From Crocinitomix sp. (GTDB taxonomy: Bacteria; Bacteroidota; Bacteroidia; Flavobacteriales_D; Crocinitomicaceae), in NCBI GenBank assembly GCA_013138735.1, contig WTCE01000105.1, forward strand, positions 1 to 34,271: a DNA stretch of 34,271 nucleotides, written 5' to 3'. Positions 564-29,188 of the stretch are shown here, one piece after another; positions within the stretch are counted from its first letter, which is position 1; every line of letters begins with the position of its first letter. The position numbers and the translations under genes were made by a program. A model generated the notes under the pieces. That model saw nothing but the letters and a program-made list of their open reading frames with translations. It had not been told where the DNA came from and did not search any database.

Positions 564-956
564 ATGAAAGGAATTTTAATCACATTATTTACCCTGTTAT
601 TATTTACAAGTTTAAAGGCACAAGATTTACCAAAGGCTTGCTTTGGTAGCTATGGTGGTGAAATGCCGAGTTATAATGTAGAGGTTGATGGTGCTTCAAT
701 TCAAATCGAAAAGCATGATGTTTTTATAACAATAACCGAAGAAGAAGTTGTTTATGTTGGTGGGAAACTAGAGCTTTCTGGAGCATATTCAGTGTTCAAG
801 CAAAGCAAGAATGAATACGTGATTAAGTCAATATTGACAAATGGAAAATCATTGACTTACGAGTTAGATTTTATTTGGAATAAGAAAGAAGAGAAGATTT
901 ATATTACTCCAAAAAACGGTCAATCTGAGGCTGAGTTGGAGAAACTAGATGCTTAA
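564..956 (+). CDS. Small secreted protein of unknown function
   Basis: This 130-residue protein belongs to no family I recognise. Residues 1-19 form a clear Sec signal peptide (hydrophobic LITLFTLLLFTSL, then KAQ and the mature start DLPKACFGSYGG), so it should be exported to the periplasm or surface. The mature part looks like an all-beta domain of about 110 residues with alternating short strands (VFITITEEEVVYVGGKLEL, EYVIKSILT, LTYELDFIW, KIYITPK) and a single cysteine. There is no lipobox, membrane helix or T9SS C-terminal domain. It has its own promoter-like element upstream. Its stop overlaps the stop of the facing sensor-cyclase gene: TTAA at 953-956 ends both. Signal peptide, promoter and beta-rich composition argue that it is a real gene. 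Confidence 0.7.
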   Translation: MKGILITLFTLLLFTSLKAQDLPKACFGSYGGEMPSYNVEVDGASIQIEKHDVFITITEEEVVYVGGKLELSGAYSVFKQSKNEYVIKSILTNGKSLTYELDFIWNKKEEKIYITPKNGQSEAELEKLDA

Positions 957-3900
957 TCTTTATACTCGTCTCGCGCATAACGCTCTTCAATTTCACGAAT
1001 GTGTTTTTCCTTCTTAACTTGTCTTAGCTTAATTGCTGATTTTGTAAAGTAAGTGTGTTGGTTTAAGAATTTGATTTGAATCTCATCCCATAAACGATCA
1101 CTATTCAATTTACCATGTTCGCGTAGTTCTCTTCTTAAATAGTCGGCAATTACATGGAAATCATCTCGCCCTAAATAATCCAAATCAGCATCACACATAA
1201 TTTGTTCTAAATGTGTTTTAGGACTTTGCGGAATTTCAGTCGATTTGATTAAACCGTCTATTACGTCAAGTTGAATATCAGTATAACCGTATTTAGGTAA
1301 TATTTCTCGCGCCATTCGGATACCGATATCTTCGTTTTTATCATATTGTTCAACAAATCCAGCATCATGATAGGTAGCGGCAGATTTGAGTAAGAAAAGA
1401 TCTTCATCTGTAATTCCTTCCATAATCGCTAATCTTTCAACGGCCTGGGTTACATCAATCGTATGGTTTATACTATGGTAAAGTAGTTTTGGTGAAAGCG
1501 CATCCTCCAATATTTTCATAATGTGACGCTCTGCTTTCATATAGTTGATTGAACTATAAAGGTGCAAGTCAACAATCTTCCAGAAATCTTCATTTGGAAC
1601 TAGGCCTTCGCCGTCTATCGAAAGTTCAGGTTTTATGCCTTTCACGTAGAACATGTCTAGCATTCCCTTATGCTTCGTTTGAATTTTACCACGGTAAACG
1701 CAGTCAAAATAAGGGGCAATAAATTCGTAGGTATTTCCAGATACATTTACAGTTCCTGGCTGACCATGCATTTCCATTCGCTGGGCTTGGTTCACAGTTG
1801 AGCCCCAAATATCATAGGCAAATCGCTTCAATCCAATTACGCCCGCAATAACTTCTCCGGTATTAATACCAATTCTAATTTTCCAAGCTTGTTCACCACG
1901 TTTTTTGGCTTCTTCAGAAAAATTAAGCATGAAGTTTTTGATTTCCAAAGCCGCCAAGGTTACTTCAATCGCATTACTCTTGTTTCGAATTGGTACCCCA
2001 CCTGCGCACATGTATGAATCGCCAATGGTTTTAATTTTTTCAAGGTCATATTTCTCAATAATCTCATCAAAAGCCGAGAAATAATCATCCAATTGCTGCA
2101 CCAATTCTTGCGGTTTCATGTCCTCCGCAATTTTTGAAAAGCCTACAAAATCTGTAAATAGTACGGATACATTTTTATAATAACGTGCTTTGGATCTTCC
2201 TTTGTTTTTCAACTCCTCAGCTGTTCCAACGGGTAAAATGTTTAACAATAATTGCTCTACTTTTTCTTTCTCCTTTTCAAGCAATTCATTTTGATGCTCA
2301 ATTTTTGCCTTTTGGATTTCTACCTTTTGTTTTTGATCTTGAATTTTTTTACTTTGTTCGGTAACTTGACGTGTACGTTTCACAACCTCAATTTCCAAAC
2401 GTACTTTCTGCCTTCTGATTTTATCAATTCTTCGGCGATAAAAGAATAAGCCAAGTGCAATTAATAATATACCGACTAAAATTCTAAACCACCAGGTTAA
2501 CCAAAAGGGCGGGGTAATGTTAATGGTAACTGTTGTAGGTTCGTCTGACCATTCGCCGTCTGCACTTTGAGCATATACTTCTAATAAATAGCTGCCATGA
2601 TCGATATTCATGTAGGTTACCTTGTTTTCTTGATCGAGGTAACTGTATTCCGTCTCGTGACCTTCTAGGCGATACTTATAACGGTTTTGCTCAGGGTTTG
2701 AGTAGTTTGTGGCAGCAAACTGGAACGTAAGGTCGTTTTGATCATAATTAAGCTCTAAAACGTCTGTAACAAGAATGTTTTCTGCAATAATTGTGCGTGA
2801 CTTGCTGTTTTTGGCTGAAAGGGTTATTTCTGAAACAATAGCCTTTGGTGGATTGGGGTTATTGGTAATTGCTTTTGGGTCGAATATATTGTAGCCCTTG
2901 ATTCCACCAAAATAAAGCAGCCCTTTAGATGTTTTTAAATAAGCCCCTGTATTAAATTCATTACTCTGTAAACCATCTTTAACACTGTAGTTTGTAAATT
3001 TTTCCGTTTTCGGATTAAGTTTTGAAATTCCTTTATTGGTACTCGCCCAAATTAAACCGTCATCATCTTCTAACAGCCCGTAAATTACATTGTTTGATAA
3101 TCCTTCTAATTCTGTGAAGTTCTTAGTTTCTCTAGTAACGAGATCCAATTTTTTTATTCCTTCTCCAAATGTTCCCAACCACATACTGCCCGGTTCGGTT
3201 TGAAGCAAACAAGTGATTTGCGCATTGGATTCGTCGTGGTCTTTAATATTACAATACTCAAAATCAAAGCTGTTTTCTGAGTTTTCATGTACAGCATAAA
3301 GTCCTTTATTACTAGTAACTACCCATGTTTGGTCAGAAAGGTCTTTGTAAATCACTTTTACAGAGCCTTCTCCAAGGCCATTTCCACTGGCATAAAAACC
3401 AAAGTCTTTTGTTGATTTATCTATGATTGTTAATCCTTCGCGTGAGGCAATCCAAAGGCGATTGGAGTCTGCCGGAATAATCGCATAAACGCGCACATCT
3501 CTGCTAATGTCATCTGGCAGAAAATCTACCGGTTTCAATTCACTTTTAAACGTTTGTAAATCGAGAATGTTAAGAATATAAACACCGTCTTCATATCCAA
3601 GCCAAATTTTATCGTCGTTTTCAACATAAATAGACAATAAGCGGTGTGTTGCATTAATATCTCTTACGATATGATAATACTGTTGCTTTTCATAATTGTA
3701 AACCGTTAAATCCTTCTTAGTGCCAATGTATGTGTTTCCAATATTATCTTCTGCAAATGACCAAACACTATAATCAATCAATCCTTTCGCAGGGTCGTTA
3801 TTTAATGAAATAGTGGTAAAGCCTTGCTTATATTTATCGAATTTGGAAACACCTTGCTCTGTCCCAATCCAAAACACGCCCGACTCATCTTCATAAATAC

Positions 3901-4834
3901 ATGAAATTTCATTGTCGGCTATAGATGAGTTGTCAAGTGGGTTGTTTTGGTATTGCGAAATGATTTGTCGGTCATCTTCTGTTTCTTGAATCAAAAATAA
4001 ACCTGCAGCCTCTGTTCCTACCCAAGTATTGTTTGCATCTTCAATATAGAGGCAGTTAATGCTTCCGTAGCGGATATCAGTATATTCCGTATAAACTTGG
4101 AGTCGCATTTCGTCATCAACATAAAAAAGTCCTTTTTTAGTTAATACCATTAAATTACCATCAGGTGCTTTGTAATAATCGTTGACTGGAGCTATGGTAA
4201 AGATGGAGTTATAATCAATGGGTTTAAATTTTTTATAAGGATAGTCTGAGTAGTAAGTTTCACCAGATTCAGTTCCTACCCACATTAAATTGTTTTCATC
4301 AATGAAAATGGCGCTTAATTCCGCATTGCCTTCAACTGATTTGATTGTTTCAATTTTTTTGGTCTTAAGGTTTATTTTGTTGATTCCGTTTTTTTCTGTT
4401 AGTGCCCAAAGGTTGCCATCTTTATCAAAAGTTAGTGAGGTGAAAATATAACCATTTAGGTTAGGGAAAGTTGTTCGGCTTATCCGCTCTACGTTATAGT
4501 TTTTCGGGTCCATTTTTCCAATTCCACGGTTCGTTCCAAACCATAACATTCCAGCTTGATCTTTATCTAGAAAATGAATGTAATTGTTGGGAATTGAATT
4601 GGCATCAACGGGATTGTGTTTGAAGGTTTTAAATGAATAACCGTCATAACGATTAATTCCATCTTGTGTAGAAATCCAAATGAAACCGTAGGGGCCCTGA
4701 ACAATTCCTGTAACCGAGCTTTGAGAAAGTCCGTCGTCTAATGAATAGGTGTCAAACTTAATCGTTTTTTGCTGCCCGTATGAGTTTACCGATAAGAGAA
4801 GTAGCAGTATGAGACGGGTCAGTGTTTTTATCAT
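953..4834 (-). CDS. Reg_prop/Y_Y_Y transmembrane sensor with adenylate cyclase and HD domains
   Basis: This 1293-residue membrane protein carries a signal peptide (1-20), then about a dozen propeller repeats of Reg_prop type (about 30-655, recurrent W.GT..G..K.D), a Y_Y_Y immunoglobulin-like domain (about 700-775) and one membrane helix (about 779-798). A coiled coil (about 803-865) leads to a class III nucleotide cyclase (about 888-1066) and a C-terminal HD domain (about 1115-1290). The cyclase keeps metal aspartates D895 and D939 and catalytic N1015 and R1019. K935 and D1008 at the base-selecting positions indicate ATP rather than GTP. The HD domain shows H1124, H1156-D1157 and D1217. The expected role is to sense a periplasmic ligand and make cAMP inside; the HD domain may hydrolyse a nucleotide, which is inference. 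It is last in the operon, 5 bases after the phosphatase gene. Usual Reg_prop partners are histidine kinases, so the cyclase-HD output is uncommon. Confidence 0.9.
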   Translation of the reverse strand: MIKTLTRLILLLLLSVNSYGQQKTIKFDTYSLDDGLSQSSVTGIVQGPYGFIWISTQDGINRYDGYSFKTFKHNPVDANSIPNNYIHFLDKDQAGMLWFGTNRGIGKMDPKNYNVERISRTTFPNLNGYIFTSLTFDKDGNLWALTEKNGINKINLKTKKIETIKSVEGNAELSAIFIDENNLMWVGTESGETYYSDYPYKKFKPIDYNSIFTIAPVNDYYKAPDGNLMVLTKKGLFYVDDEMRLQVYTEYTDIRYGSINCLYIEDANNTWVGTEAAGLFLIQETEDDRQIISQYQNNPLDNSSIADNEISCIYEDESGVFWIGTEQGVSKFDKYKQGFTTISLNNDPAKGLIDYSVWSFAEDNIGNTYIGTKKDLTVYNYEKQQYYHIVRDINATHRLLSIYVENDDKIWLGYEDGVYILNILDLQTFKSELKPVDFLPDDISRDVRVYAIIPADSNRLWIASREGLTIIDKSTKDFGFYASGNGLGEGSVKVIYKDLSDQTWVVTSNKGLYAVHENSENSFDFEYCNIKDHDESNAQITCLLQTEPGSMWLGTFGEGIKKLDLVTRETKNFTELEGLSNNVIYGLLEDDDGLIWASTNKGISKLNPKTEKFTNYSVKDGLQSNEFNTGAYLKTSKGLLYFGGIKGYNIFDPKAITNNPNPPKAIVSEITLSAKNSKSRTIIAENILVTDVLELNYDQNDLTFQFAATNYSNPEQNRYKYRLEGHETEYSYLDQENKVTYMNIDHGSYLLEVYAQSADGEWSDEPTTVTINITPPFWLTWWFRILVGILLIALGLFFYRRRIDKIRRQKVRLEIEVVKRTRQVTEQSKKIQDQKQKVEIQKAKIEHQNELLEKEKEKVEQLLLNILPVGTAEELKNKGRSKARYYKNVSVLFTDFVGFSKIAEDMKPQELVQQLDDYFSAFDEIIEKYDLEKIKTIGDSYMCAGGVPIRNKSNAIEVTLAALEIKNFMLNFSEEAKKRGEQAWKIRIGINTGEVIAGVIGLKRFAYDIWGSTVNQAQRMEMHGQPGTVNVSGNTYEFIAPYFDCVYRGKIQTKHKGMLDMFYVKGIKPELSIDGEGLVPNEDFWKIVDLHLYSSINYMKAERHIMKILEDALSPKLLYHSINHTIDVTQAVERLAIMEGITDEDLFLLKSAATYHDAGFVEQYDKNEDIGIRMAREILPKYGYTDIQLDVIDGLIKSTEIPQSPKTHLEQIMCDADLDYLGRDDFHVIADYLRRELREHGKLNSDRLWDEIQIKFLNQHTYFTKSAIKLRQVKKEKHIREIEERYARDEYKD

Positions 4835-4839
4835 TTGGC

Positions 4840-6666
4840 TTAAATTCTTACTCCTACTACTAAAATATCATCTACTTGTTCAAAAGAACCTTGCCATTCG
4901 AACATTGTTTTTTGTAGGTATTTTTTCTGTTTAGACATTTCTTCTTTGTGCACTGATAACAAGTGCTGTCGGAAGCGATTATAAAGGAATTTTTTCCCGC
5001 GCTCACCACCAAACTGATCTGCATATCCATCACTAAATAAATAGATTACATCTCCTTTTTGAAGTTGCACTTTATGTTGGTTATATTTTTTGCTTCCTGG
5101 ATCAAAAGAGCCAATTGCAAACTTATCCGCTTTAATAATCATAAACTCGCCATCACGAATAATGTATAGTGGATTATTTGCCCCAGCATAGAATAATTCC
5201 ATTTTTTCATAATCAATAGAGCAAAGGGCAATATCCATTCCGTCTCTAATTTGATTTTCTTCTCTACTTTTATTCAATGATTCGTTTACGAATTTATTGA
5301 GATGATCCAAAATTTCTGCTGGCTCAGTCACATTATGTTCACGAATAGATGTGTTTAATCCATTGGCGCCTACTAGACTCATAAATGCACCAGGCACACC
5401 GTGTCCAGTACAATCAACTGCCGCAAAAAAGTTTGCTTTTTCTGTTTTTTCAAACCAGTAAAAATCTCCCGAAACAATGTCCTTTGGTTTGTATAAAACA
5501 AAGGAATCTGGACATATTGAATTGATTACTTCTTTTGGGGGAAGGATAGAGTTTTGTAATCGTTTTGCATAACGGATACTTGCTGTTACGGCTTTATATA
5601 AATCTTCTAATTTTAATCGTTGACGCTCATTTTCATCACGTTGTCTTACAACCTCTTCAGTTCGTTCTTTTACTTTTTGCTCTAATATTCGTTCTGTTTC
5701 TGCCAACTCATCACGCATTTTTAATAAGGCATGGCCCAATACATCTTCATTACTCAAGGGCTGATAAGGTGAATTAAAATTACTTTGTCCAACCTCTTCG
5801 GCAAAATGGGTGGTTTTTTTCATGCCATCTACCAGGTCTACCACGGCCGAGGACATATCACCTATTTCGTCATTTCTAATTTCAATTTTTTGTCTTGGAA
5901 AAATACCCTTACCTAATGACAATAGTACTTCGCGTAAATTATTAACTGGCTTTACAATTGTATTTGTTGTAAATACCGCAATGAAAATTGCAAAAATAAT
6001 TAAACAAGCTCCTAACCACCAATAGATGCGGAGGGATTGGAATTTTGTTCTAGATTCACCAGAGGATAAACGCACCAAGTCTAATGCATCCTTTTGTTTA
6101 TTAACAACGCTTTCTTCTAAGAACCCCAGATTTTTAAATAAATCTGTCATGTCTTCACCTACACCATTTTGATCAACTAAGCCCCGTGCCGAAAAAACAT
6201 TGAAAGCGTCATCATAACTACTAATGTTGGGCAAATAATCCATCATTTGCTGGTAGTTTGCAAACAAAGTGACATATTGATCCTTTAATACTTTAAATAG
6301 GTCTAAGTCATCCTCATCTGTCCATTTTTTAGAAATGTTTTCAAGCTTCTCAATTGTTGCTGGAATGTCTGTATCAATGATGGCTTTAAAACGCATTTTA
6401 TGATCAACGTCATTTCGGCTTTGGTCATTAACCCACTGTGCAGCCAATTGTCTAGACTCCGTTGTAAGAGATTGCAGACCAATTACATACTCTTTTGAAG
6501 GAGTTAAAACATTAATTAGTTGATTGGAGGTTTTATCGTTTTCCTGAAACGTTTCAATCCCATTATTTACAGCTAAAAAAGTGGCACCAAAGACCACAAT
6601 TATGAATAGAATAAGAACTCCAAATCCGGTTCCAATCTTTTTTCCTATTGTAAATCTAAAGCTCAT
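4840..6666 (-). CDS. Membrane HAMP-domain PP2C/SpoIIE-type serine phosphatase
   Basis: This 608-residue protein has an N-terminal helix (about 14-33), an extracytoplasmic helical sensor (34-213), a second helix (about 215-233), HAMP (about 234-290), a coiled coil (about 312-355) and a PP2C/SpoIIE phosphatase domain (about 370-608). Metal-binding motifs are all present: SGDFYW (D401), DCTGHGVPGAFMS (D418), SDGYADQFGG (D546) and QVDDILVVGV (D599). It should dephosphorylate a serine/threonine-phosphorylated protein in response to a periplasmic signal passed through HAMP. Such domains often act on STAS anti-anti-sigma factors, but none is encoded nearby, so its substrate is unknown. It lies between the TPR gene (27 bases upstream) and the cyclase gene (5 bases downstream), consistent with one transcript. 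The ATG at 6666 begins a typical short cytoplasmic tail (MSFRFTIGKK). Confidence 0.9.
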   Translation of the reverse strand: MSFRFTIGKKIGTGFGVLILFIIVVFGATFLAVNNGIETFQENDKTSNQLINVLTPSKEYVIGLQSLTTESRQLAAQWVNDQSRNDVDHKMRFKAIIDTDIPATIEKLENISKKWTDEDDLDLFKVLKDQYVTLFANYQQMMDYLPNISSYDDAFNVFSARGLVDQNGVGEDMTDLFKNLGFLEESVVNKQKDALDLVRLSSGESRTKFQSLRIYWWLGACLIIFAIFIAVFTTNTIVKPVNNLREVLLSLGKGIFPRQKIEIRNDEIGDMSSAVVDLVDGMKKTTHFAEEVGQSNFNSPYQPLSNEDVLGHALLKMRDELAETERILEQKVKERTEEVVRQRDENERQRLKLEDLYKAVTASIRYAKRLQNSILPPKEVINSICPDSFVLYKPKDIVSGDFYWFEKTEKANFFAAVDCTGHGVPGAFMSLVGANGLNTSIREHNVTEPAEILDHLNKFVNESLNKSREENQIRDGMDIALCSIDYEKMELFYAGANNPLYIIRDGEFMIIKADKFAIGSFDPGSKKYNQHKVQLQKGDVIYLFSDGYADQFGGERGKKFLYNRFRQHLLSVHKEEMSKQKKYLQKTMFEWQGSFEQVDDILVVGVRI

Positions 6667-18213: not shown

Positions 18214-19122
18214 TTAGCGTTCACTTTTTCGATCTCCGAATGTAATTCCTAATAAGACTTCGTGTGAACCTGAGCTGTAATTTTTTAAATCAGTAGTCGT
18301 AATATCATAGGCATATCCTATTGATAATGTTTCGTGATATTTAAACCCAGCCATCACCGTTACGGCATCTCTGATTCGGACGCCAAAGCCACCCCAAAGC
18401 ATTTTTTTATAAGTTGCACGTAAGTTTATGTCAAATTTGGGCGGTGCCGGTAAACCAAGTTTTAATAAGAAACTTGGTTGTAATTCCCAGTTTTCAGCCA
18501 CGTCTAAATTATAACCACCATGGAAATAATAATGGTCTTCTAGATAACTTTCAGATCCAATTTGTGTGGATAAAAAAGAAAGTTTGTCATGAAATATTTG
18601 TTCAATCGACGAGCCAAAATACCAATCGTCATGATAAAGGTAAAATCCAAATTTCCCATCTGGATCAAATGATTTTAATAATCCGTTGGAAAAATAAAAA
18701 TCATCTGCATGATAGGCTGTAATTTTATCTGCATCTAAAATCCATTGATTAAACCCTAAGGATAAGCCAAATGAAAGTTGAATGGTTTCTGTCAACCTAA
18801 AATTATAGGCCATAGAAGCTTGAAAACCCAGTCGCCGAGTTGGGCCGACAACATCTGTATAGACATAGCCCCCCAAGGATAAGTTCTCTTTCTTTAATGG
18901 TCCGCTAGCCGACAAGGTAAAGGTTCTTGGCGCATCTGTTATTCCAATCCATTGGTAGCGATTATTTGTAACGGCTTCCCAATTTTCTTGTGCACCAGCA
19001 TAGGCTGGATTATAAGCATATTGGTTAAACATGTATTGCGTAAACTGTGGCAATTGTTGTGCCCTGGCAAATCCGCATATAAATAATGCGACTATGAGCG
19101 TATATGTATTGTGTAGCTTCAT
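18214..19122 (-). CDS. PorP/SprF-family T9SS membrane protein (copy 2)
   Basis: This 302-residue outer-membrane protein has a signal peptide (1-21, ending CGFARAQ) and the family's opening motif QFTQYMFNQYAYNPAYAGAQ, then RYQWIGITDAPRTFTLSASGPL and a barrel of alternating strands ending near VLLGITFG. PorP/SprF proteins support secretion or surface attachment of T9SS cargo that carries CHU_C (type B) C-terminal domains; SprF is needed for SprB in Flavobacterium. Here the gene starts 7 bases after the stop of the giant SprB-type adhesin, exactly the SprB-SprF arrangement, so the adhesin is its likely client. A second family member sits on the other side of the adhesin gene. Confidence 0.93.
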   Translation of the reverse strand: MKLHNTYTLIVALFICGFARAQQLPQFTQYMFNQYAYNPAYAGAQENWEAVTNNRYQWIGITDAPRTFTLSASGPLKKENLSLGGYVYTDVVGPTRRLGFQASMAYNFRLTETIQLSFGLSLGFNQWILDADKITAYHADDFYFSNGLLKSFDPDGKFGFYLYHDDWYFGSSIEQIFHDKLSFLSTQIGSESYLEDHYYFHGGYNLDVAENWELQPSFLLKLGLPAPPKFDINLRATYKKMLWGGFGVRIRDAVTVMAGFKYHETLSIGYAYDITTTDLKNYSSGSHEVLLGITFGDRKSER

Positions 19123-19129
19123 TCTTAAA

Positions 19130-22100
19130 TTACCACATTACGGTTAATGGTCCTGTTATTGGATCAGGAAAATCTTCGTGATCCACATCTATTACGAAGT
19201 AGTATGTTCCGGCAGGTAAGCGCTTTCCATCTACTGTTGTTCCAGCCCAATCATCATTGTAAGTTTCGTCACTTTCATATAATAGGTCTCCCCAACGGTT
19301 ATAAATATTAATTTTTATAGATACGCCAGGGTATTGGTCGATAAAGTCAAGGATCCATGTATCATTTTTCCCATCTGAACCAGGTGTTATTCCATCAGGT
19401 ATTACAATATCTGGAAGCAGGGTAACATACATGGAGTCTATATTCGAGCAACCATTGCTGTCTGTAGCTGTAACATAATACCACAGAGACATTTCTGGTG
19501 TAATTACCGAAGGATTGTCTATAAACGGATCATTTAAGTAAGTTGCTGGATCCCATATTATCGTATTATCAATATCAGTTGTTGGTGATCCTCCAATGGT
19601 TCCTGTTTGTCCTGGATATAGTTCGATATCTGGTCCTGCATCTACAAATATTGGTGGAGCAGTTGTTACAATTACTGTATCATAATCTGTACAACCCATG
19701 TATAGAACTTCTAATATGTAATATTCCGTTCCAGCTTCATTACCTGTAAGGACTAGGGAACTAGAATCTGAAAGGATATTTCCTAATGTGTCAAACCAAG
19801 TATAGGTTGCACCGTCTGCAATATTCGAAGTTCCAAAAAGAATTAGATCTGTGTTATTGCAAATGAGTGTATCAGGTCCAGCATTTGCAATAATGCTAAT
19901 TAGCGTGTCTACAGTTAATGTATCCATATAGACACATCCGTTTTCATCTGTAATTGTTAAATAATATGTCATTGGCAGAAGTCCACTTGGATCTTCTACT
20001 GTGAAGGTATCAATAAGCGTTTCTGAAACCCATTCATAGGTATAATCTGGTGTACCACCAATTACTGTAATGAATATTGCACCATCTGCAGCGTCTTGAC
20101 AAGTTGCATCATTGATACTGTCGAGCGTTATTAGCAATTCGTCTGGTTCAATCAATGTTCCAATTTGTATAACTTCACATCCGTTCGCATCTGTCATGGT
20201 AACTGTGAATGTACCAGCGCACAAGTCAGTAGCTGCTGGGGTAGTTTGTACTGCTGGATCGTCCCAAGTAAATACGAATGGTAAAGTACCTCCAATTGGG
20301 TTGGCCACAATAAAGCCGTCACAATCTCCAAAACAAGATGGGTCTTGAGAGAAAAGAGGGTTTACAAGTATCGTATCTGGTTCAGTAATTGCTGCTCCTT
20401 GGTAGGAGATACATCCTGCAGCATCTGTCACTTCAAGAATATAAAGCCCTGCACATAAATCTGTGATTAGTGGTGTGGTTGTTCCTATAGGAATCCCAAG
20501 TTCGTCTAACCATTCGAATGTGAAGGCAGGGTTTCCACCAGTTAAACTTAAAGTATCAATTGTACCATTGCAATTTCCATTACAGTCTATATCTGTTGCT
20601 ATTAATTCTATAACAACAGCTGATAGATTGTTTAAAGTATAAGTAAAGTCAAGTGAACATCCATTGTCATCAGTTATGGTGAGCACATAAATGCCAGCAT
20701 CTAAACCAGTAATAGCTGATGTTGTTGCGCCAGTGTCCCATAAATAAGTATGCGGTAACACTCCGCCGGATGACATAACGTTAATAGATCCATCTGACAA
20801 GCCACATGATGGGTTAGAAATAATTGCTTCTGCATCTATTGGTGCTGGATCAAACATTTCAACTTCAATGGTAGTAATACAGCCAATGTCATCTGTGATT
20901 TCAACAAAATAACTGCCTGCACATAATCCTGTTAAGATGTTTGAGGTAGAAAGGTCGTGTAACCAGAGATAAGTATATGGTGCTGTTCCACCAAGTCCAG
21001 TAACCACTAATGATCCGTCACATGATTCGGCGCAAGTAATTGCGGTTACAATAGCATCACCTGTTAAGCCTTCACTATTTCCAACCGTGAATGATTGAAT
21101 GACTGAACAGCCATTTTCATCTGTAATTTCTGCTTCATAAGCACCTGAGCAAAGATCTGTTAATGATAAACCTGTTGCGCCTGTATTCCACACGACAGTT
21201 AAAGCACCTGTTCCACCCATGAGAGTAAGGTCTATTGCTCCATTGCAAAGTCCACAATCTGTTGGTATAACAACTGCTGTTGCAATAATTTCAGCTGGAT
21301 CGACTAGTGTAGTATCTTCGAAAGTAACACATCCAAGGTCATCTGTTACTTGAATAATGTAGTCGTTAGCACATAAACCTGTTGGATCTTCGGCAATAAT
21401 ACCGTCTGGATTCCAAACATAAGTAAAAGGTGGATTGTCTCCGCTAGCCGTTATGGCGATACTTCCGTCACATGATCCAAAACAAGTTGGGTGATTGATT
21501 TCATCAAACACAACATCTGGACCACCAATATCACTTATAGTTGCCATAAATGTTTCGCTACAACCATTGGCATCAGTTACTGTTACAAAATAAATCCCTG
21601 AGAAAACATCTAATAAAGTCATGTCTATTTCTCCCGGTAGCGGAACCATTCCGTCATCAAACCATTGATAGGTAAATGGAGGATTTCCTCCACTAGCAAA
21701 TACAGTTGCGTTGCCATCAGCTATTGCACATGTGGCATCATTTGAGAATACGCTTCCAATTATTTCTGGGAAGCCATCAATAACAACAGGTAATAGTCCT
21801 GCAGTACATCCGTTTGCATCTACTACTTCAACTGTATAATTTCCTTCGCATAAATCTACAACCGAAGCTCCAGTGCCTCCTACGATTGGAACACCACCAA
21901 TTGTGAGCCATTCAAATGTATATGCAGGGGTTCCGCCAACAACAACAATATCTCCAGTTCCATCACAGAATCCAAAACAACTAGCATCAGTAGTTGTGAG
22001 TGTAAAGCTTATTTCGGTAGGTTCCGTAATAATAACAGTTGCTGAGGTTAAACTACAGCCATTGCCATCAGTGATTACAGCATAATAACTACCTGGACAA

Positions 22101-25100
22101 AGGCCAGTTGCTACTGGTCCTGTAATTCCAATAAGTGCATCTGTTATGGCATCATACCAAACGACTACATAGGGTGGTGCTCCACCACCAACTACTACGG
22201 TAGCGGTTCCATCACATAGTCCAAAACAAGTTACATCTGTGCTTGATATTGGAGCAGTAATTGCAATAGGTTCACTAATTGTTACATCCTCAGGAAGTGT
22301 AACAACACAGCCATTAGCATCTGTTACTTCAACATTATAATTGCCGGGGCAAATACCAGCAAGTAAAGGAGATACTTCTCCAGGCATTAAAATACCGTCC
22401 ATATACCATTGGAATGTAAATCCGCCAGCTCCGCCAGATGCAGAAGCTAAAATTGTACCGTTGCAGAAACCATTACATGTTACGTTGGTAGGGTCAACTG
22501 TTAGTATAATTGGTACCGGATCTGCTAAGTTAAAATTAAGTGTTTGTTCACAACCGTCAGCATCTGTTATGGTAACTGTCCAAGTTCCTGGGCCAAGATC
22601 TAAAGCTTCATTGGTTCCGTCACCGTTTGGTGGAATAGGCGACCATGAATAAGTATATCCGCCGCCAGATCCTCCTGTTGGAAATAATGTGATTGTTCCG
22701 TCAGAATCTCCTGAACAAGTTATTTGTGTAATGATTTCTCCTGCAAAAATTTCTGGAGGACTTCCTATGATAACACTTTCTATTGTAACGCAGCCAGAGC
22801 CATTAATTACTTCAACAAAATATTCACCCGGACATAGGTCCGTAATTATGGATGTAGTGACACCAGTCGTTAGGCCAGTTACTGCATCATACCATTCTTG
22901 TGTACACGGTGGATCACTACAGACATATGTTGCTTCTGCAGTTCCGTCACAAAGTCCGAAACAAGAGGCGTCTGTTGAGGTTATTGTGACATCCTCACCT
23001 GAAAGATCTGAAATAGCAAATACTTCAGTAATTGTACAGCCGTTGGCATCAGTGATTAATACGTTTACTACGCCTGGACAAAGCCCTGTTGCATTATTCG
23101 TTCCATCTCCACCAAGTGGATCAGGTGTCCAATCATATGTATATGGTTCAAGACCACCTTCTACATTTACTGTTGCTGACCCATTGCACTCGCCGCATGT
23201 TGCATTGTTCGAGAAGGTTGATGTCGTTACAATTTCAGGTGATTCGTCCAGTATAAATGTCGTGTCGATTGAACAACCTAAGGCATCTGTAATAGTCAAT
23301 GTTATTGGTCCTGCACATAAGTCACTTGCCGTTACTCCCGTTTGACCATCTGACCAGTTGAGTGTATATGGAGCTGTTCCGCCTAAAGGAGCAACAATAA
23401 CTTCTCCTGTGCACTCTCCAAAACAAAGAACGTCCGTTAAGTCGGTCATGTTGGCAAATATTGGATCGTTATCAATAATTTCAAATGATAGGGTCGTATC
23501 ACAGGTACCGGCATCAGAAATGGTGACGGTCCATATACCTGCACAAAGGAAGTTCGCAGTTGGCGTAACTTGCACTAAAGGATCATCCCATAAATAAGTA
23601 TAGGGCGGATTATTTCCATCTAAAACAACTACAGTTGCTGTTCCGTCGCAATCTCCAGCGCAAGAAATATTGGTTTGACTCGGAATAACAACCCATGGAG
23701 ATGAGGGTGAGGTCATATCAATTGGACCAAATATTTGAACGCATCCGCTTAAATCTGTAATTTCTAGATTATAAGTACCCGTACATAAGTTTTCTAAAGA
23801 ATCATTCGTTTGTCCAAGAATTGGCAATCCAAATTCGTCTAACCATTGGAAGAAGTATACACCATCTCCTCCTCCAGGAATTACCCAAATTAAGCCGTCG
23901 CAATCACCATAACAAGAAATTGTTTCCGTATTAATTATCGCTGTAATTTCTGGTGCATCATCCACAGGAATACATGTGCTTGTGACTGTACATCCGTTAT
24001 CATCTGTAACAACACATTCATATGAGCCTGGTGCCAACCCTGTCGCTAATGGACCCGTTTGTCCAATTGGTAAACCTGTTGCACAATCAAACCATTCATA
24101 AGTATAAGGCGGTGTACCACCACTTGCAATTACACTTGCTGTTCCGTCAGTATCTCCAAAACATGAAACGCCTGTTGATGATTCGGTATCAATAACAACG
24201 CCCGGTTCTTCATTAACCGTCGTTGTAAATATTACGATACAACCTGAGGCGTCTGTTACCACAACCTCCCAAGGACCTGCACATAAACCGATAGCATTTG
24301 GTGTTCCTTCACCTCCGCCTGGTAATGGCACTCCCCAGTCATAGGTATATGGCGGTGTTCCGCCAGAAACAACAACTGATGCAGTTCCGTCGCAAAGACC
24401 TTCGCATGTTACATCTGTCGCTGTTATTACGCCAGTAATTTCTTCTGGTTCGTTAACAACAATCACTTCAGTGGTAACGCATCCTGATGCATTAGTGAGG
24501 ACGGCTAAATATTCCCCAGCGCATAAACCAGTTGCTGGGCTGCCGAAAATACCAGTCGTTAATCCCGTTATATTATCAAACCATTCTAATACATAAGGTC
24601 CATCTAATTCAACAAATATCGCAATTGCCTGACCATCACAAAGCCCAAAGCAGCTAACATCAATTGAATCTAATTCTAAAACTTCCAATGCAATATCATC
24701 TATACTAACTACAATAGATTCAACGCATCCTGCAGCATCCGTTATAGTTACTGTATATGTTCCTGAACAAAGTCCAGTTACTGATGGTGTACCGTCTCCA
24801 GTAAGTGGATCTGGTTCCCAATCATATACGAATCCTCCTGCACCACCTGTTGCAGTAATAACGGCCTCACCGTCGCAAATCGCACAAGTAGCATCTGTTG
24901 TGGATACAATGGATGGAATAATTTCAGGAAATTCAGTTATTTCTATATCGTCCGATTGAGCCGTACATCCATTATCGTCTGTAACAATGCAATAATAATC
25001 GCCAGCACATAAATCAAAAATGGAGTCATTGTCAACGCCTAAGGCGATATCAGTTGCGGCATCAAACCATTCAAATGTATAAGGAGTTGTTCCACCACTA

Positions 25101-28100
25101 ATTGTAACATTAGCTGAACCAGTGCAATCGCCAAAGCACGCACCGTCTATTAGTTCAATATCAATGACAAGTTCTTCTGGTTCGATAAGTACGAATGTAA
25201 CTGCAGTGTCGCACCCATTATTGTCTGTAATAACAGCAATATAAGTTCCAGCACATAGACCTACTGCAGTAAATGTCGTTTGGGCTAAAGGATCATCCCA
25301 TAAAATAGTATAAGGAGCAACACCGCCACTGTTTACAAGAACGGTGGCAGTTCCATCACAATCTCCAAAGCAAAGTAAATCAACCTGGCTCAATGTTAAA
25401 TCAAAATCGGCTGGTTCAGCAATTGTGATGCTTGCAGATGCTACGCATCCATTGTCATCTGTAACTGTTACGGTATAAGTTCCTGCACAAAGGTCACTTG
25501 CCAATAATGTTGTTTGGGCATCTGGGTCATCCCAAAGAATGGAATAAGGAGGCGTTCCTCCTGTAATGACAACATCTGCTGATCCATCACAATCACCATT
25601 ACACAATACATCAGCAATTACGTTGGCATCTAATATTAATTCTGGTGGACTGGTAATGTCAAATGACATAGTCGTATCACATCCTTCAGAATCAGCAATC
25701 GTTACAGTCCATGTGCCTGCGCTTAAACCGGAAACATTTGCTGTTCCATCTCCAACAGGTGGTGTTGGTACCCAAGTAAAGGTATATCCAAATCCGCTTC
25801 CGCCACTATTAACTGTAATATCAATTGCTCCATCCGTATCTCCAAAACAAGCTAAATCGGTAATGATAAAGTCAATATCGTATTCTTCTGGTGAATCTAA
25901 AGTAATTGTACTCTCTCCTGTACAACCGTTATCATCTGTCACCGTTACGGTATAAGTATCTGCACACATATCTGAAGGAGAATCGGTATCTCCGCCAGTA
26001 CCTGGCAGTGGCGACCATGAATAAGTATATGGAGGGGTGCCTCCAGCACCAACAGCCAAGGCTGTTCCATCACATAAATCAAAACAAGTTGGATTAGTTC
26101 CAGTTACTGTTGCGGTAACCTCAGAAGGTTCAAGCACTTCAACAACCATTGCTGCTGATTCGCAACCGCTATCGTCTGTTACAATAATTTGATATTCACC
26201 TGGGCATAAACCGCTAATTGAATCTGTTGCTCCAACTCCTATTCCTCCTGGAAATGTTGTCCAGCTATAAGTATAAGGAGGTGTGCCACCTGTAATGTCA
26301 ACATCTGCTGCGCCGTCACAAACACCGAAACATGAAACACTATAAACATCAACCGTCATAATAAACGGAGGCGGCTCGCTAATGGTAATGGTCGCACTTG
26401 TTATATCACATCCCGAAGCATCCGTAACAACTACGAAATAGTCGCCAGCGCAAAGTCCAGTGGCCGTTTGGTCTGTAATTCCCGTTGTTAAACCTGTTCC
26501 AGCGTCGAACCATTCGTAGGTGTAAGCAGGAACACCACCAACTGGGTTCGCTGTAGCTTCACCGTCGCAATCTCCATTACAATTTGCGTCAACAACATCA
26601 ATTATTGTAACGGTCATAACAGGAGGATCAATTATGGTAATTGTGGTATCAAAATCACATCCATCAGCATCTGTAAGTGTTAATAGAATATCACCTGAGC
26701 AAAATCCATCTCCAGGGTTAGATGCCGCGCCACTAGCTGGTGCAGGAACCCAATTAAACGTAAAAGGCCCACCATTTCCGCCTGATGGATTTACCAATAT
26801 TATGGCGTCACAATCACCATTACAGGTGGGGGGTGTAATGTCTGGATTGGCGACAATAGGGATTGGGTCTGATATGACTACGGTATCACTAATCGTACAA
26901 CCATTAATATCTGTAATAACAATAGGATTGTCTCCCACGCAGAGCATAGTTGGGTTTGGTGTTGTTTCACCACTTACTGGCCAAAAAATTACTAAGGGTG
27001 ACGTTCCTCCTGTCGGAAAGGTAAAAGCTTGTCCATCACAAATATCAGGACAGGTTGGATTTATCGTTACCGGTGGGTCAAATGAAAGAACTGGTGGTTC
27101 GTTCAAATCATCACTAATGGTGCAAATATCGAATAGTCCTGGCGCTAATTCATTAGAAGAATCGGTTACAGTTACTGAATGTGAGCCTACACATAAATCA
27201 CTAAATACATTTGCAGCTCCAAATGGCGCAGGGTCTGGCCCAAGGCGATATGAAAACGGACCTGGTGTGCCTGATGCAACTACAGTAATTTCACCATCAC
27301 ATGAGTCAAAACAGGAAATGTGTTCACCATTATAATCGGAAGTAATGAATAAATTTAATTCAAATGGTGGTGTTGTACAAAATACGGTGGCATCTTTAGT
27401 AAGATCTCCGTCAAGTGTAAATTCTTTTAATTCTTCTGGGATGACAGAGTCGCATAAAACTAGGTAGGTTCCTCTGCCTCCAACATTCTCAGCTTCTGGA
27501 ACAAAGAAATTATCTAAAACAGAGATGTGTGAGGCAGTAAAGTCTAAATCGATCGCGTCATGATTGGCATAGATCGCCCTTGCATGAACGGTGTACCCTC
27601 TTGATTTGAAACTGCCTGAATTGAAATGAATCGAATAGTTTTTACCTGCTTTTAAATGACCAGCTAATTCCCAATCTCCTTGCTCGAAATAAATGTCTGT
27701 ATAGAAATCATTTCCATTAGTGTTGAGGGTGGCAGGTAAAGGATTTTTGTTTTTTAAAATTAGTTTACCGCCTAAATAGAACCCGGCGTTTGAGTTCATG
27801 TTGAGGTCGCCGCCTAAGGTTAGATTTATCCCGCTTCCGTAAAAAGAAATATATTCTTTCGAGTCTATATCCATAGACTGGATTGAAATATGATCTGTGA
27901 TTTGTACTAAAGAAAAATCATCAGTAAAGGAAAGTTCATCAAAAACAACATGATCATGCACACCAGGAATAGATCCACTAGCGGCGCCTCCGGAACTGGC
28001 TGACCAATGTCCGCCATCATTCCAGTTACCAGAACCATTTACCCAAAAGTAGTCACCAGAAAAGGCAACGTTTGACCATAGGGTAAATAGGGCAACGGTT

Positions 28101-28135
28101 AGAATGAAAATTTTCGCGGATAATGCTTTAGTCAT
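19130..28135 (-). CDS. Giant SprB-type cell-surface adhesin (3001 residues)
   Basis: This secreted adhesin begins with a signal peptide (1-26). An N-terminal domain follows (about 28-250) starting YFWVNGSGNWNDGGHWS, with VHDHVVFDE and beta-helix-like repeats. Then come 31 SprB-type repeats (about 275-2745), two Ig/PKD-like segments (about 2750-2905, AGPDTLICN and AGPDIELYPGQ) and a CHU_C domain (about 2913-3001, PDGITPGSDGKNDTW, IYNRWGDLLYES, LPAGTYYFVIDV). Each repeat carries GGTPPYTY-W and a LCAGTYTVTVTDDNGC-like end. By analogy with Flavobacterium SprB it would be exported by T9SS and displayed as a long filament for attachment or gliding. PorP/SprF genes flank it on both sides. The start is ATG at 28135, 105 bases from the previous stop. 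The minus-strand box TAAATTTG (28151-28144) sits very close to the start and is not a convincing promoter. Confidence 0.95.
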   Translation of the reverse strand: MTKALSAKIFILTVALFTLWSNVAFSGDYFWVNGSGNWNDGGHWSASSGGAASGSIPGVHDHVVFDELSFTDDFSLVQITDHISIQSMDIDSKEYISFYGSGINLTLGGDLNMNSNAGFYLGGKLILKNKNPLPATLNTNGNDFYTDIYFEQGDWELAGHLKAGKNYSIHFNSGSFKSRGYTVHARAIYANHDAIDLDFTASHISVLDNFFVPEAENVGGRGTYLVLCDSVIPEELKEFTLDGDLTKDATVFCTTPPFELNLFITSDYNGEHISCFDSCDGEITVVASGTPGPFSYRLGPDPAPFGAANVFSDLCVGSHSVTVTDSSNELAPGLFDICTISDDLNEPPVLSFDPPVTINPTCPDICDGQAFTFPTGGTSPLVIFWPVSGETTPNPTMLCVGDNPIVITDINGCTISDTVVISDPIPIVANPDITPPTCNGDCDAIILVNPSGGNGGPFTFNWVPAPASGAASNPGDGFCSGDILLTLTDADGCDFDTTITIIDPPVMTVTIIDVVDANCNGDCDGEATANPVGGVPAYTYEWFDAGTGLTTGITDQTATGLCAGDYFVVVTDASGCDITSATITISEPPPFIMTVDVYSVSCFGVCDGAADVDITGGTPPYTYSWTTFPGGIGVGATDSISGLCPGEYQIIVTDDSGCESAAMVVEVLEPSEVTATVTGTNPTCFDLCDGTALAVGAGGTPPYTYSWSPLPGTGGDTDSPSDMCADTYTVTVTDDNGCTGESTITLDSPEEYDIDFIITDLACFGDTDGAIDITVNSGGSGFGYTFTWVPTPPVGDGTANVSGLSAGTWTVTIADSEGCDTTMSFDITSPPELILDANVIADVLCNGDCDGSADVVITGGTPPYSILWDDPDAQTTLLASDLCAGTYTVTVTDDNGCVASASITIAEPADFDLTLSQVDLLCFGDCDGTATVLVNSGGVAPYTILWDDPLAQTTFTAVGLCAGTYIAVITDNNGCDTAVTFVLIEPEELVIDIELIDGACFGDCTGSANVTISGGTTPYTFEWFDAATDIALGVDNDSIFDLCAGDYYCIVTDDNGCTAQSDDIEITEFPEIIPSIVSTTDATCAICDGEAVITATGGAGGFVYDWEPDPLTGDGTPSVTGLCSGTYTVTITDAAGCVESIVVSIDDIALEVLELDSIDVSCFGLCDGQAIAIFVELDGPYVLEWFDNITGLTTGIFGSPATGLCAGEYLAVLTNASGCVTTEVIVVNEPEEITGVITATDVTCEGLCDGTASVVVSGGTPPYTYDWGVPLPGGGEGTPNAIGLCAGPWEVVVTDASGCIVIFTTTVNEEPGVVIDTESSTGVSCFGDTDGTASVIASGGTPPYTYEWFDCATGLPIGQTGPLATGLAPGSYECVVTDDNGCTVTSTCIPVDDAPEITAIINTETISCYGDCDGLIWVIPGGGDGVYFFQWLDEFGLPILGQTNDSLENLCTGTYNLEITDLSGCVQIFGPIDMTSPSSPWVVIPSQTNISCAGDCDGTATVVVLDGNNPPYTYLWDDPLVQVTPTANFLCAGIWTVTISDAGTCDTTLSFEIIDNDPIFANMTDLTDVLCFGECTGEVIVAPLGGTAPYTLNWSDGQTGVTASDLCAGPITLTITDALGCSIDTTFILDESPEIVTTSTFSNNATCGECNGSATVNVEGGLEPYTYDWTPDPLGGDGTNNATGLCPGVVNVLITDANGCTITEVFAISDLSGEDVTITSTDASCFGLCDGTAEATYVCSDPPCTQEWYDAVTGLTTGVTTSIITDLCPGEYFVEVINGSGCVTIESVIIGSPPEIFAGEIITQITCSGDSDGTITLFPTGGSGGGYTYSWSPIPPNGDGTNEALDLGPGTWTVTITDADGCEQTLNFNLADPVPIILTVDPTNVTCNGFCNGTILASASGGAGGFTFQWYMDGILMPGEVSPLLAGICPGNYNVEVTDANGCVVTLPEDVTISEPIAITAPISSTDVTCFGLCDGTATVVVGGGAPPYVVVWYDAITDALIGITGPVATGLCPGSYYAVITDGNGCSLTSATVIITEPTEISFTLTTTDASCFGFCDGTGDIVVVGGTPAYTFEWLTIGGVPIVGGTGASVVDLCEGNYTVEVVDANGCTAGLLPVVIDGFPEIIGSVFSNDATCAIADGNATVFASGGNPPFTYQWFDDGMVPLPGEIDMTLLDVFSGIYFVTVTDANGCSETFMATISDIGGPDVVFDEINHPTCFGSCDGSIAITASGDNPPFTYVWNPDGIIAEDPTGLCANDYIIQVTDDLGCVTFEDTTLVDPAEIIATAVVIPTDCGLCNGAIDLTLMGGTGALTVVWNTGATGLSLTDLCSGAYEAEITDENGCSVIQSFTVGNSEGLTGDAIVTAITCAESCDGSLVVTGLGGTAPYTYLWLHDLSTSNILTGLCAGSYFVEITDDIGCITTIEVEMFDPAPIDAEAIISNPSCGLSDGSINVMSSGGVLPHTYLWDTGATTSAITGLDAGIYVLTITDDNGCSLDFTYTLNNLSAVVIELIATDIDCNGNCNGTIDTLSLTGGNPAFTFEWLDELGIPIGTTTPLITDLCAGLYILEVTDAAGCISYQGAAITEPDTILVNPLFSQDPSCFGDCDGFIVANPIGGTLPFVFTWDDPAVQTTPAATDLCAGTFTVTMTDANGCEVIQIGTLIEPDELLITLDSINDATCQDAADGAIFITVIGGTPDYTYEWVSETLIDTFTVEDPSGLLPMTYYLTITDENGCVYMDTLTVDTLISIIANAGPDTLICNNTDLILFGTSNIADGATYTWFDTLGNILSDSSSLVLTGNEAGTEYYILEVLYMGCTDYDTVIVTTAPPIFVDAGPDIELYPGQTGTIGGSPTTDIDNTIIWDPATYLNDPFIDNPSVITPEMSLWYYVTATDSNGCSNIDSMYVTLLPDIVIPDGITPGSDGKNDTWILDFIDQYPGVSIKINIYNRWGDLLYESDETYNDDWAGTTVDGKRLPAGTYYFVIDVDHEDFPDPITGPLTVMW
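19903..27331 (-). repeat. Array of 31 degenerate SprB-type coding repeats, about 240 bases each
   Basis: By hand count, 31 in-frame repeats average 80 residues (first motif Cys codon 27313-27311, last 20101-20099). Consensus: a Cx1-2xCDG start, GGTPPYTYxW about 20 residues on, then LCAGxYxVxVTDxxGC. They are strongly diverged at the DNA level, so recent slippage is unlikely. Framework cysteines number four in 25 repeats and two in repeats 7, 14, 20, 24, 28 and 31. Repeat 1 has a displaced last cysteine, and repeat 19 has an extra CSDPPC pair. Confidence 0.9.
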
Positions 28136-28240: not shown

Positions 28241-29188
28241 TTACTCAAACGTGGCGCAAGACGTAGTGCTTGAATTTCCATAGTTTGAGCAGGAATTAAA
28301 TCCCCCAGTAATTTCGTGTGTATACCAAATGTTTTTATTGAGTTTGGATATGATAAAATCAAAGGAATATCCAACTGAAATGAAATTAAAAAGCTTTACC
28401 CTGAATTGCGCAGTTACTGCATCCGTACGTCTCAATCCAACTCCAACAGATATTTTATTATCAAGATTGAACAAAGCGCTAAGGTGAAAATCCACTGGTG
28501 TATTCTTTGTTTTCATGAAGAAGAATGAAGGAACAAACACCCACTTTTTCTCCAATTTAATTTGTCGACCTGCTGTCATATAAAAGTGACGTTGTAGTGC
28601 CGATTCTGGTCCAATTTGATCTAATCGGTTTCCAAAAATATTATGAACAGAAAACCCAAAATAGGTGCGTTTATCCGCTAGCCATACACCTAATCTGCCA
28701 TCTGGAAAAACTAGAAATGATTGACTTGCCGTTGGAATGGCGGGATCATTAAACTCAGTAGTGAGATCGCTAACCGAAAATGCCGCTTGTTTAATTCCAA
28801 AAGAGACCCCAAATGAAAGGCGCCAATCTTTATTAATTGGTAAATGAAGCGCATAAGAAAGTTGGGCTTGTAAAAATGAAAGTGGACCAAACTTATCGCG
28901 ATTAATAAGGATACCTATTCCGCTTTTTGGACCAAATAGGTTTCTTTTTTTTCTACTAAATGAAAGTGGACCATGTGCATTAACAAAACCCGTTTGTGGC
29001 GAACCGTCAATTCCTACCCATTGAAAACGATATCCTGTGCGAATATCAATACACCTTTTAGTACCAGCAACCGCAGGATTAAAGTTGAATTGATTGAACT
29101 GATATTGCGTATAATGTTCGGTCTGTTGCCCTTGAACATTATAAGCTGAAAAAGCCAAAATCGATATGAAGATTTTAAAATAGCGCAA
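28241..29188 (-). CDS. PorP/SprF-family T9SS membrane protein (copy 1)
   Basis: This 315-residue outer-membrane barrel has a signal peptide (about 1-20, ending NVQGQ) and family motifs YTQYQFNQFNFNPAVAGTK, YRFQWVGIDGSPQTGFVNAHGPL and a series of barrel strands. A tail rich in Asn, Ser and Cys (about 300-315, GGFNSCSNYGNSSTTSCATFE) is longer than in the copy at 18214. The start is TTG at 29188, one base after the stop of the upstream CHU_C gene; there is no in-frame ATG before the upstream stop or near the signal peptide, so translation is probably coupled. Its nearest type B cargo are the CHU_C protein immediately upstream and the giant adhesin downstream, so it may serve either one. Known family role: helper for CHU_C-type cargo. 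Confidence 0.92.
   Translation of the reverse strand: MRYFKIFISILAFSAYNVQGQQTEHYTQYQFNQFNFNPAVAGTKRCIDIRTGYRFQWVGIDGSPQTGFVNAHGPLSFSRKKRNLFGPKSGIGILINRDKFGPLSFLQAQLSYALHLPINKDWRLSFGVSFGIKQAAFSVSDLTTEFNDPAIPTASQSFLVFPDGRLGVWLADKRTYFGFSVHNIFGNRLDQIGPESALQRHFYMTAGRQIKLEKKWVFVPSFFFMKTKNTPVDFHLSALFNLDNKISVGVGLRRTDAVTAQFRVKLFNFISVGYSFDFIISKLNKNIWYTHEITGGFNSCSNYGNSSTTSCATFE

Follow-up and report, generated by a model that had tools for sequence, protein, structure and literature searches.

Paired cysteine losses point to disulfide staples between successive Ig-like SprB repeats of a Crocinitomix adhesin

Introduction

Which cysteines of a long SprB-repeat protein are bonded to which? The question is raised by a 34,271-nucleotide stretch of DNA from Crocinitomix sp. 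(contig WTCE01000105.1 of assembly GCA_013138735.1), referred to here as the window, in which a single open reading frame encodes a protein with 31 SprB repeats and a recurrent set of four cysteines. Adhesins of the SprB type form long filaments on the cell surface of Bacteroidota and transmit force during gliding and adhesion. An earlier note on this DNA proposed two disulfides inside each repeat, an optional one between the second and third cysteines (C2-C3) and an invariant one between the first and fourth (C1-C4). Analysis of cysteine losses across the repeat family strongly supports the optional bridge, while the invariant pair is contradicted by the statistics of the junctions between repeats. 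Instead, each immunoglobulin-like (Ig-like) repeat is very probably stapled covalently to the next by a bond between C1 of repeat n and C4 of repeat n+1, with the C2-C3 bridge added in many repeats. If so, such a filament could hardly be stretched or unravelled, and the capacity of a thin chain of small domains to bear load would be explained.

Results

The protein and its cysteines

The reading frame and its repeat array are laid out as follows.

19130..28135, minus strand: SprB-repeat protein of 3001 residues, one open reading frame; in order, an N-terminal region, 31 SprB repeats, an Ig_7 domain, a last Ig-like domain and a tail of the type B class of the type IX secretion system (T9SS)
19934..27313, minus strand: array of 31 repeats, bounded by C1 of the first and C4 of the last

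The SprB repeat model of Pfam (PF13573) matches the protein in 26 stretches and scores 633 bits (cut-off 28). The C-terminus scores as a type B T9SS tail with both TIGR04131 (45.9 bits, cut-off 35) and CHU_C (69.9 bits, cut-off 27), and one copy of Ig_7 (PF19081) is matched 3' of the array. The gene is thus read as that of a surface adhesin of great length, exported by the T9SS of a Crocinitomix-like bacterium and built as a chain of Ig-like SprB repeats; this identification forms part of the stapled-chain interpretation and shares its high probability. The N-terminal region of the protein is present in 9/9 genomes of the genus and the SprB repeat in 29/30 genomes of the order, the window's own genome being included in each count; the repeat also occurs in 76/296 genomes of the phylum.

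C1 and C2 lie in the CxGxCDG start of each repeat, C3 in LCAG and C4 in DxxGC. When the 31 repeats were read singly, 25 had both C2 and C3, 6 had neither and none had one alone. The repeats without the pair are exactly those numbered in the earlier note, and its coordinates for the array (19903-27331) do enclose it.

25679..25849, minus strand: repeat 7 (C1 to C4), without C2 and C3; residues there T/S
23990..24163, minus strand: repeat 14 (C1 to C4), without C2 and C3; residues there T/A
22550..22717, minus strand: repeat 20 (C1 to C4), without C2 and C3; residues there S/G
21560..21730, minus strand: repeat 24 (C1 to C4), without C2 and C3; residues there A/F
20657..20806, minus strand: repeat 28 (C1 to C4), without C2 and C3; residues there S/D
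19934..20101, minus strand: repeat 31 (C1 to C4), without C2 and C3; residues there A/L

C1 and C4 are kept in 31/31 repeats, with C4 displaced in repeat 1, where the C3-C4 spacing is 23 rather than the 14 of repeats 2-31. Framework cysteines account for 112 of the 123 in the protein, close to the earlier estimate of about 110. A Fisher test of C2 against C3 in these 31 repeats gives p = 1.4e-6, a value to be read with caution, since repeats within the same protein do not count as independent.

C2 and C3 are present or absent together

To follow the cysteines across the family, repeats were collected with a profile in which the four cysteine columns had been masked, so that detection favoured no cysteine state. 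The first set comprised 81 loci (from the window, its own genome, the genus, the order and the phylum) with 1295 repeats, and was non-random in that long or high-scoring frames were picked from listings. The second comprised 74 loci from a separate scan with 1757 repeats, 5 of 79 having been omitted for overlap with the first set. Both were scored by one identical, narrow reading rule. Domains found by the hidden Markov model were dropped when the C2 or C3 column was unaligned (149/1446 and 113/1873 in the first and second sets), and 2 and 3 more were dropped as overlaps or frame edges. A combined set of 185 protein frames (4/189 dropped as duplicates), 2978 repeats and 2658 junctions was then read with wider windows for C1 and C4, a lone cysteine at the C2 place being taken as C1. 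Alignment slips at forms such as NCGxxDG and CxDG can inflate the apparent loss of C1. These wider rules were chosen after inspection of the exceptions in both sets, and the combined count is therefore not blind. Individual loci are given by survey number (L).

C2 and C3 were both present, both absent or mixed in 331, 958 and 6 repeats of the first set, in 710, 1037 and 10 of the second, and in 999, 1969 and 10 of the combined set. The earlier note had held that frequent occurrence of one without the other in family members would speak against the bridge; such repeats amount to 10/2978. By corrected mutual information (MIp), C2-C3 leads all 2628 pairs of columns separated by 3 or more positions (z = 27.7), with three times the score of the second-ranked pair. 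Changes of state were also counted on a tree of 800 repeats with few gaps, built after removal of the four cysteine columns; on this poorly resolved tree of short repeats, which allows a rough count, the joint C2/C3 state changes 130 times, C2 alone 127 times and C3 alone 128 times, against a mean of 251 for shuffled labels.

The mixed repeats are themselves informative. Six of them keep C3 together with another cysteine in the C-D region: those in L206, L184, L200 (twice) and L205, which make up 5/10 in the second set, and that in L071 (1/6 in the first). The C-D-region cysteine is a possible alternative partner for C3 at the same end of the domain. Repeat 30 of L125 lacks C2 but keeps C3, for which no other partner is evident, and repeat 1 of L185 was unreadable. 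The remaining mixed rows appear to be cases of C-D-region partners, of shifted readings (L156 and repeat 8 of L200) or of array edges. Taken together, these patterns strongly support a C2-C3 disulfide within the repeat that is optional from repeat to repeat.

C1 is lost with C4 of the following repeat

The second half of the earlier proposal fared differently. An invariant C1-C4 bridge inside the repeat would suit the near-universal presence of both cysteines, which gives each repeat an even number of framework cysteines, but their losses within a repeat are nearly independent: the odds ratio is 2.6 in the first set, 1.7 in the second and 2.6 in the combined set, where 73 repeats have lost only C1, 61 only C4 and 4 both. 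The coupling appears instead across the junction. In the first set, C1 of repeat n and C4 of repeat n+1 are both kept at 1077 junctions, only C4(n+1) is lost at 4, only C1(n) at 16 and both at 15 (odds ratio 252, p = 3e-22). The second set gives 1596, 3, 6 and 11 in the same order (odds ratio 975, p = 9e-22), and the combined set 2622, 5, 8 and 23 (odds ratio about 1500). At lags of -2, -1, 0 and +2 the odds ratio is 0-4.8 in the first and second sets. The 23 junctions that have lost both cysteines are spread over 14 frames of the combined set and compare with a mean of 4.2 and a maximum of 10 in 2000 shuffles within proteins. In addition, coupling is seen between the residue that follows C1 of repeat n and model column 1 of repeat n+1 (z = 11.6), which may likewise reflect contact across the junction.

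Could these joint patterns reflect inheritance only, with repeats duplicated together with their neighbours so that linked states spread without any physical pairing? Adjacent repeats do tend to share their C2/C3 state (odds ratio of about 15 at lag +/-1 in the first set), and the orthologues lack C2 and C3 in the same repeats as the window protein wherever their contigs cover them. Yet strong C1/C4 coupling is seen at lag +1 only, and in two separate sets of loci; the joint loss exceeds what shuffling within proteins produces; and C2-C3 stands far above any other column pair in MIp score. We therefore regard inheritance without pairing as highly improbable. Repeat 25 of L069, an orthologue, has switched C2 and C3 jointly.

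Most one-sided losses of C1 have a candidate substitute. A linker cysteine lies between the repeats at 5/8 junctions that lack only C1(n) (two in L011, one in L080 and two in L224), and at junction 26 of L164, another one-sided loss, a cysteine lies just outside the reading window. One-sided losses with no evident partner are found at the following junctions, numbered within the run: 1 of L177, 22 of L153, 4 of L166, 2 of L142, and 1 and 3 of L133; one junction of a three-repeat run is a further case.

A separate observation concerns L136 (frame +1), in which C1 and the next C4 are both lost after repeats 1, 4, 7, 10, 15 and 18. These unstapled junctions lie 3-5 repeats apart, and five of the six persist under the wider rule, a pattern that regularly placed hinges or duplication of a three-repeat unit might produce.

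A third arrangement, in which C1, C2 and C3 of repeat n and C4 of repeat n+1 would bind a metal ion in place of any disulfide, gains some appeal from the strand order described below, by which all four cysteines come to the same junction. The unit of loss, on the other hand, is the pair and not the quartet: C1 is kept in 1907 of the 1969 repeats without C2 and C3, and conversely C1(n) and C4(n+1) are lost while C2 and C3 of n are kept in L073, L078, L155, L167 and, twice, L170. Other optional cysteine pairs in the fold are also what bridges would give. We consider a metal site extremely unlikely.

The ends of the array

A chain of staples should leave its mark at the array ends, and the losses there are lopsided. 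In runs of at least 4 repeats of the combined set, 27/187 first repeats lack C4, compared with 24/2377 internal ones, and 21/187 last repeats lack C1, compared with 25/2377; the converse is rare (first repeats without C1, 6/187; last repeats without C4, 3/187). First repeats that keep C4 have a cysteine within 115 residues upstream in 149/149 cases, and last repeats that keep C1 have one downstream in 151/151. The tendency of first repeats to lose C4 and of last ones to lose C1 argues against C1-C4 bridges within repeats. In the window protein, the cysteines that could receive the terminal staples are these.

27377..27379, minus strand: Cys253, before repeat 1; proposed partner of C4 of repeat 1 (Cys338)
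19691..19693, minus strand: Cys2815, C4-like cysteine of Ig_7; proposed partner of C1 of repeat 31 (Cys2679)
19859..19861, minus strand: Cys2759, C1-like cysteine of Ig_7; proposed partner of Cys2896
19448..19450, minus strand: Cys2896, C4-like cysteine of the last Ig-like domain (C1 absent from this domain here); proposed partner of Cys2759

Cys253 is a cysteine in 9/9 aligned sequences of the genus, the window's included, which is not so for Cys228. The C-terminal end was examined in an alignment (A3) of the 20 better-scoring of 35 matching stretches. C1 and C4 of the last repeat, both Ig_7 cysteines and the C4-like cysteine of the last domain are present in 20/20 rows, C1 being shifted by one column in L182, and 12 rows have exactly these five cysteines. 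In 18/20 rows the last domain is free of cysteines throughout its N-terminal half. A within-domain scheme would leave its C4-like cysteine unpaired, whereas the staple scheme would pair all of them. Ig_7 differs from the SprB repeat in being a separate Pfam family (CHU_C-associated) and in occurring here as a single copy, but its C1-like and C4-like cysteines are in the same register and would continue the chain. As an observation apart, 5/20 Ig_7 domains (L184, L206, L163, L168 and L200) have an extra pair of cysteines, at A3 columns 155 and 174, always both.

Strand order in a predicted structure

To place the cysteines on the fold, three successive repeats were modelled with AlphaFold2 from an alignment (A2) of 136 rows, comprising 26 of the 29 window triplets and 110 of 1545 others.

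25397..26140, minus strand: repeats 6-7-8, AlphaFold2 model (predicted local distance difference test score, pLDDT, 96.6; predicted template modelling score, pTM, 0.79)

The repeat is predicted to be an Ig-like beta-sandwich: the strands follow in order in the model, and its Foldseek matches include Ig-domain chains. C1 and C2 (positions 19 and 23) fall in the A-B loop, C3 (59) in the E-F loop and C4 (73) in the F-G turn. In a model of the C-terminal part (pLDDT 90.1, pTM 0.72), the cysteines fall within or just beside equivalent positions. Since strand G runs on into the following domain and adjacent strands are antiparallel, the A-B and E-F loops should be at the far end of the domain and the F-G turn at its near end, a placement that is argued from strand order and leans on general knowledge of Ig folds. 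C2 would thus face C3, and C1 of repeat n would face C4 of repeat n+1. The model therefore suggests that C1 and C4 of one repeat sit at opposite ends of the domain, each facing across a junction. In light of this order, the junction statistics and the lone cysteine of the last domain, C1-C4 bridges inside repeats are very unlikely.

Discussion

A proposed stapled chain

The arrangement that we favour is a bond across each junction: C1 of repeat n, in its far-end A-B loop, would pair with C4 of repeat n+1, in the F-G turn at that repeat's near end. A C2-C3 bridge between the A-B and E-F loops would close the far end in 25/31 repeats of the window protein. The staples would extend beyond the array, to Cys253 on one side and by way of Ig_7 to the last domain on the other, giving 30 staples between repeats, one on the way in (253-338), two on the way out (2679-2815 and 2759-2896) and 25 C2-C3 bridges.

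The mechanical consequences would be considerable. Each stretch from C4 of one repeat to C1 of the next (24-27 residues, strand G plus the following strand A) would be stapled to the corresponding stretch two repeats further along, and two interleaved covalent rails would thus run along the protein. The C1-to-C4 cores (49-57 residues in repeats 2-31) would lie off the load path, and unravelling of a repeat by pulling would be prevented. With a stretch length of 0.36 nm per residue, two repeats would extend to roughly 9-10 nm when stapled, compared with roughly 58 nm when unstapled, which would make the filament a tether with almost no give.

Several observations weigh against this interpretation. 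Losses are rare (both cysteines are missing at 23/2658 junctions) and recur in single proteins (five in L136, four in L216), so there are fewer independent events, perhaps about 14. In the combined set the odds ratio at lag -2 reaches 6.7 (6 cases), probably through periodic losses in single proteins. By the narrow rule, the staple is intact at only 6/11 junctions of L142 and 15/17 of L138. The C1(n)-C4(n+1) pair ranks only 58 of 5625 in MIp and 39 of 5548 in the filtered list, because both columns are nearly invariant, and the coupling with z = 11.6 may in part be an edge effect, column 1 coupling with many columns. At the array ends there is little contrast, in that an upstream cysteine is also found for 17/22 first repeats without C4 and a downstream one for 12/15 last repeats without C1. 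The last domain of L164 and of L182 (2/20) does have a cysteine in its first half. Finally, neither DsbB nor VKOR is matched in the window's own genome, which has one DSBA-family match and three MauE matches, one of them over the cut-off. Because the bonds would join different domains and no DsbB or VKOR match is found in this genome, stapling would set a folding problem for the T9SS.

Probable further bridges and cysteines outside the scheme

Among 2791 repeats, further pairs of cysteine columns occur together or alone as follows: 22-48, 23 and 0; 27-32, 22 and 2; 58-72, 19 and 22. From this co-occurrence they are probably more optional bridges; some weaker pairs were also found. More broadly, SprB-type T9SS filaments might be double-railed covalent cables in which force bypasses the domain cores, rare unstapled junctions act as hinges and further optional bridges (columns 22-48, 27-32 and 58-72) tune the individual beads, a tentative generalization to which we give slightly less than an even chance.

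Seven cysteines of the window protein fall outside both the staples and the C2-C3 bridges: 228, 1049, 1351, 1374, 1388, 1739 and 1744. Cys1739 and Cys1744, in repeat 19, are at the place of the 27-32 pair, counted along the seed alignment. Repeat 14 has Cys1351 and Cys1374 inside it and Cys1388 just after it; all three are also cysteines in each of the five orthologues aligned there (L062, L063, L064, L065 and L068) and in L069 too, and Cys1374 and Cys1388 are symmetric about the F-G turn. Cys228 and Cys1049 share one distribution, both being conserved among the window, L062, L063 and L064 and both missing from L065, L066, L068 and L069, which may be due to the chance of one clade.

Related systems

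Covalent cross-links are known to counter mechanical load in the isopeptide-bonded pilins of Gram-positive bacteria and in the disulfide-linked endospore appendages of Bacillus. Those systems differ in fold, in chemistry or in having bonds between subunits, whereas the staples proposed here would connect consecutive domains within a single chain.

The closest structure in the PDB, by lowest E-value for the three-repeat model, is GhpA, the grappling hook protein of Aureispira sp. CCB-QB1 (9flw, 9flp and others), a protein of 5898 residues of which fragments were solved by cryo-electron microscopy. It matches by fold (E = 8e-9, template modelling score 0.52 by query length) and by sequence profile (9e-55), and the part of the alignment considered here has C1-like and C4-like cysteines as in the SprB repeats. 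Bonds between GhpA domains may already be in print. With that reservation, stapling between SprB repeats may be undescribed: no account of disulfides in SprB repeats was found in the portions considered of the literature on SprB, Ig-like domains and the T9SS, and the sections covered of PMC12618676 mention no disulfide and those of PMC12635249 no bonds within SprB. Among the papers covered, two use the term SprB repeat, and the words cysteine and disulfide occur in neither.

SprB of Flavobacterium johnsoniae has PF13573 repeats, a type B tail and an SprF anchor. The window protein resembles it in repeat family, in tail and in the SprF-type genes next to it, as far as the sections covered of PMC12635249 go. 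According to the same sections, F. johnsoniae SprF ends in a Cys-X-Cys motif that forms a disulfide to GldK and so ties SprF to the gliding track (PMC12635249). In four Flavobacterium loci of our survey (L161, L186, L207 and L215), which do not include F. johnsoniae SprB, C1(n) and C4(n+1) are both present at 66/66 scored junctions; these arrays differ from that of the window in having the C2-C3 pair in 0/70 repeats.

Neighbouring genes

The adhesin gene is flanked on both sides by genes of the PF11751 family, an adjacent PorP/SprF-like carrier as is seen with T9SS type B substrates.

18214..19122, minus strand: PorP/SprF-like outer-membrane gene (PF11751), downstream of the adhesin
28241..29188, minus strand: PorP/SprF-like outer-membrane gene (PF11751), upstream of the adhesin

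Unlike F. johnsoniae SprF, neither of these two proteins, the only ones examined for it, has the C-terminal Cys-X-Cys, and a role in gliding is therefore not established. The upstream protein has two terminal cysteines 11 positions apart. Elsewhere in the window, positions 953-4834 encode a protein with a regulatory propeller, a Y_Y_Y domain and an adenylate/guanylate cyclase domain, which is adjoined by a SpoIIE-domain protein at 4840-6666.

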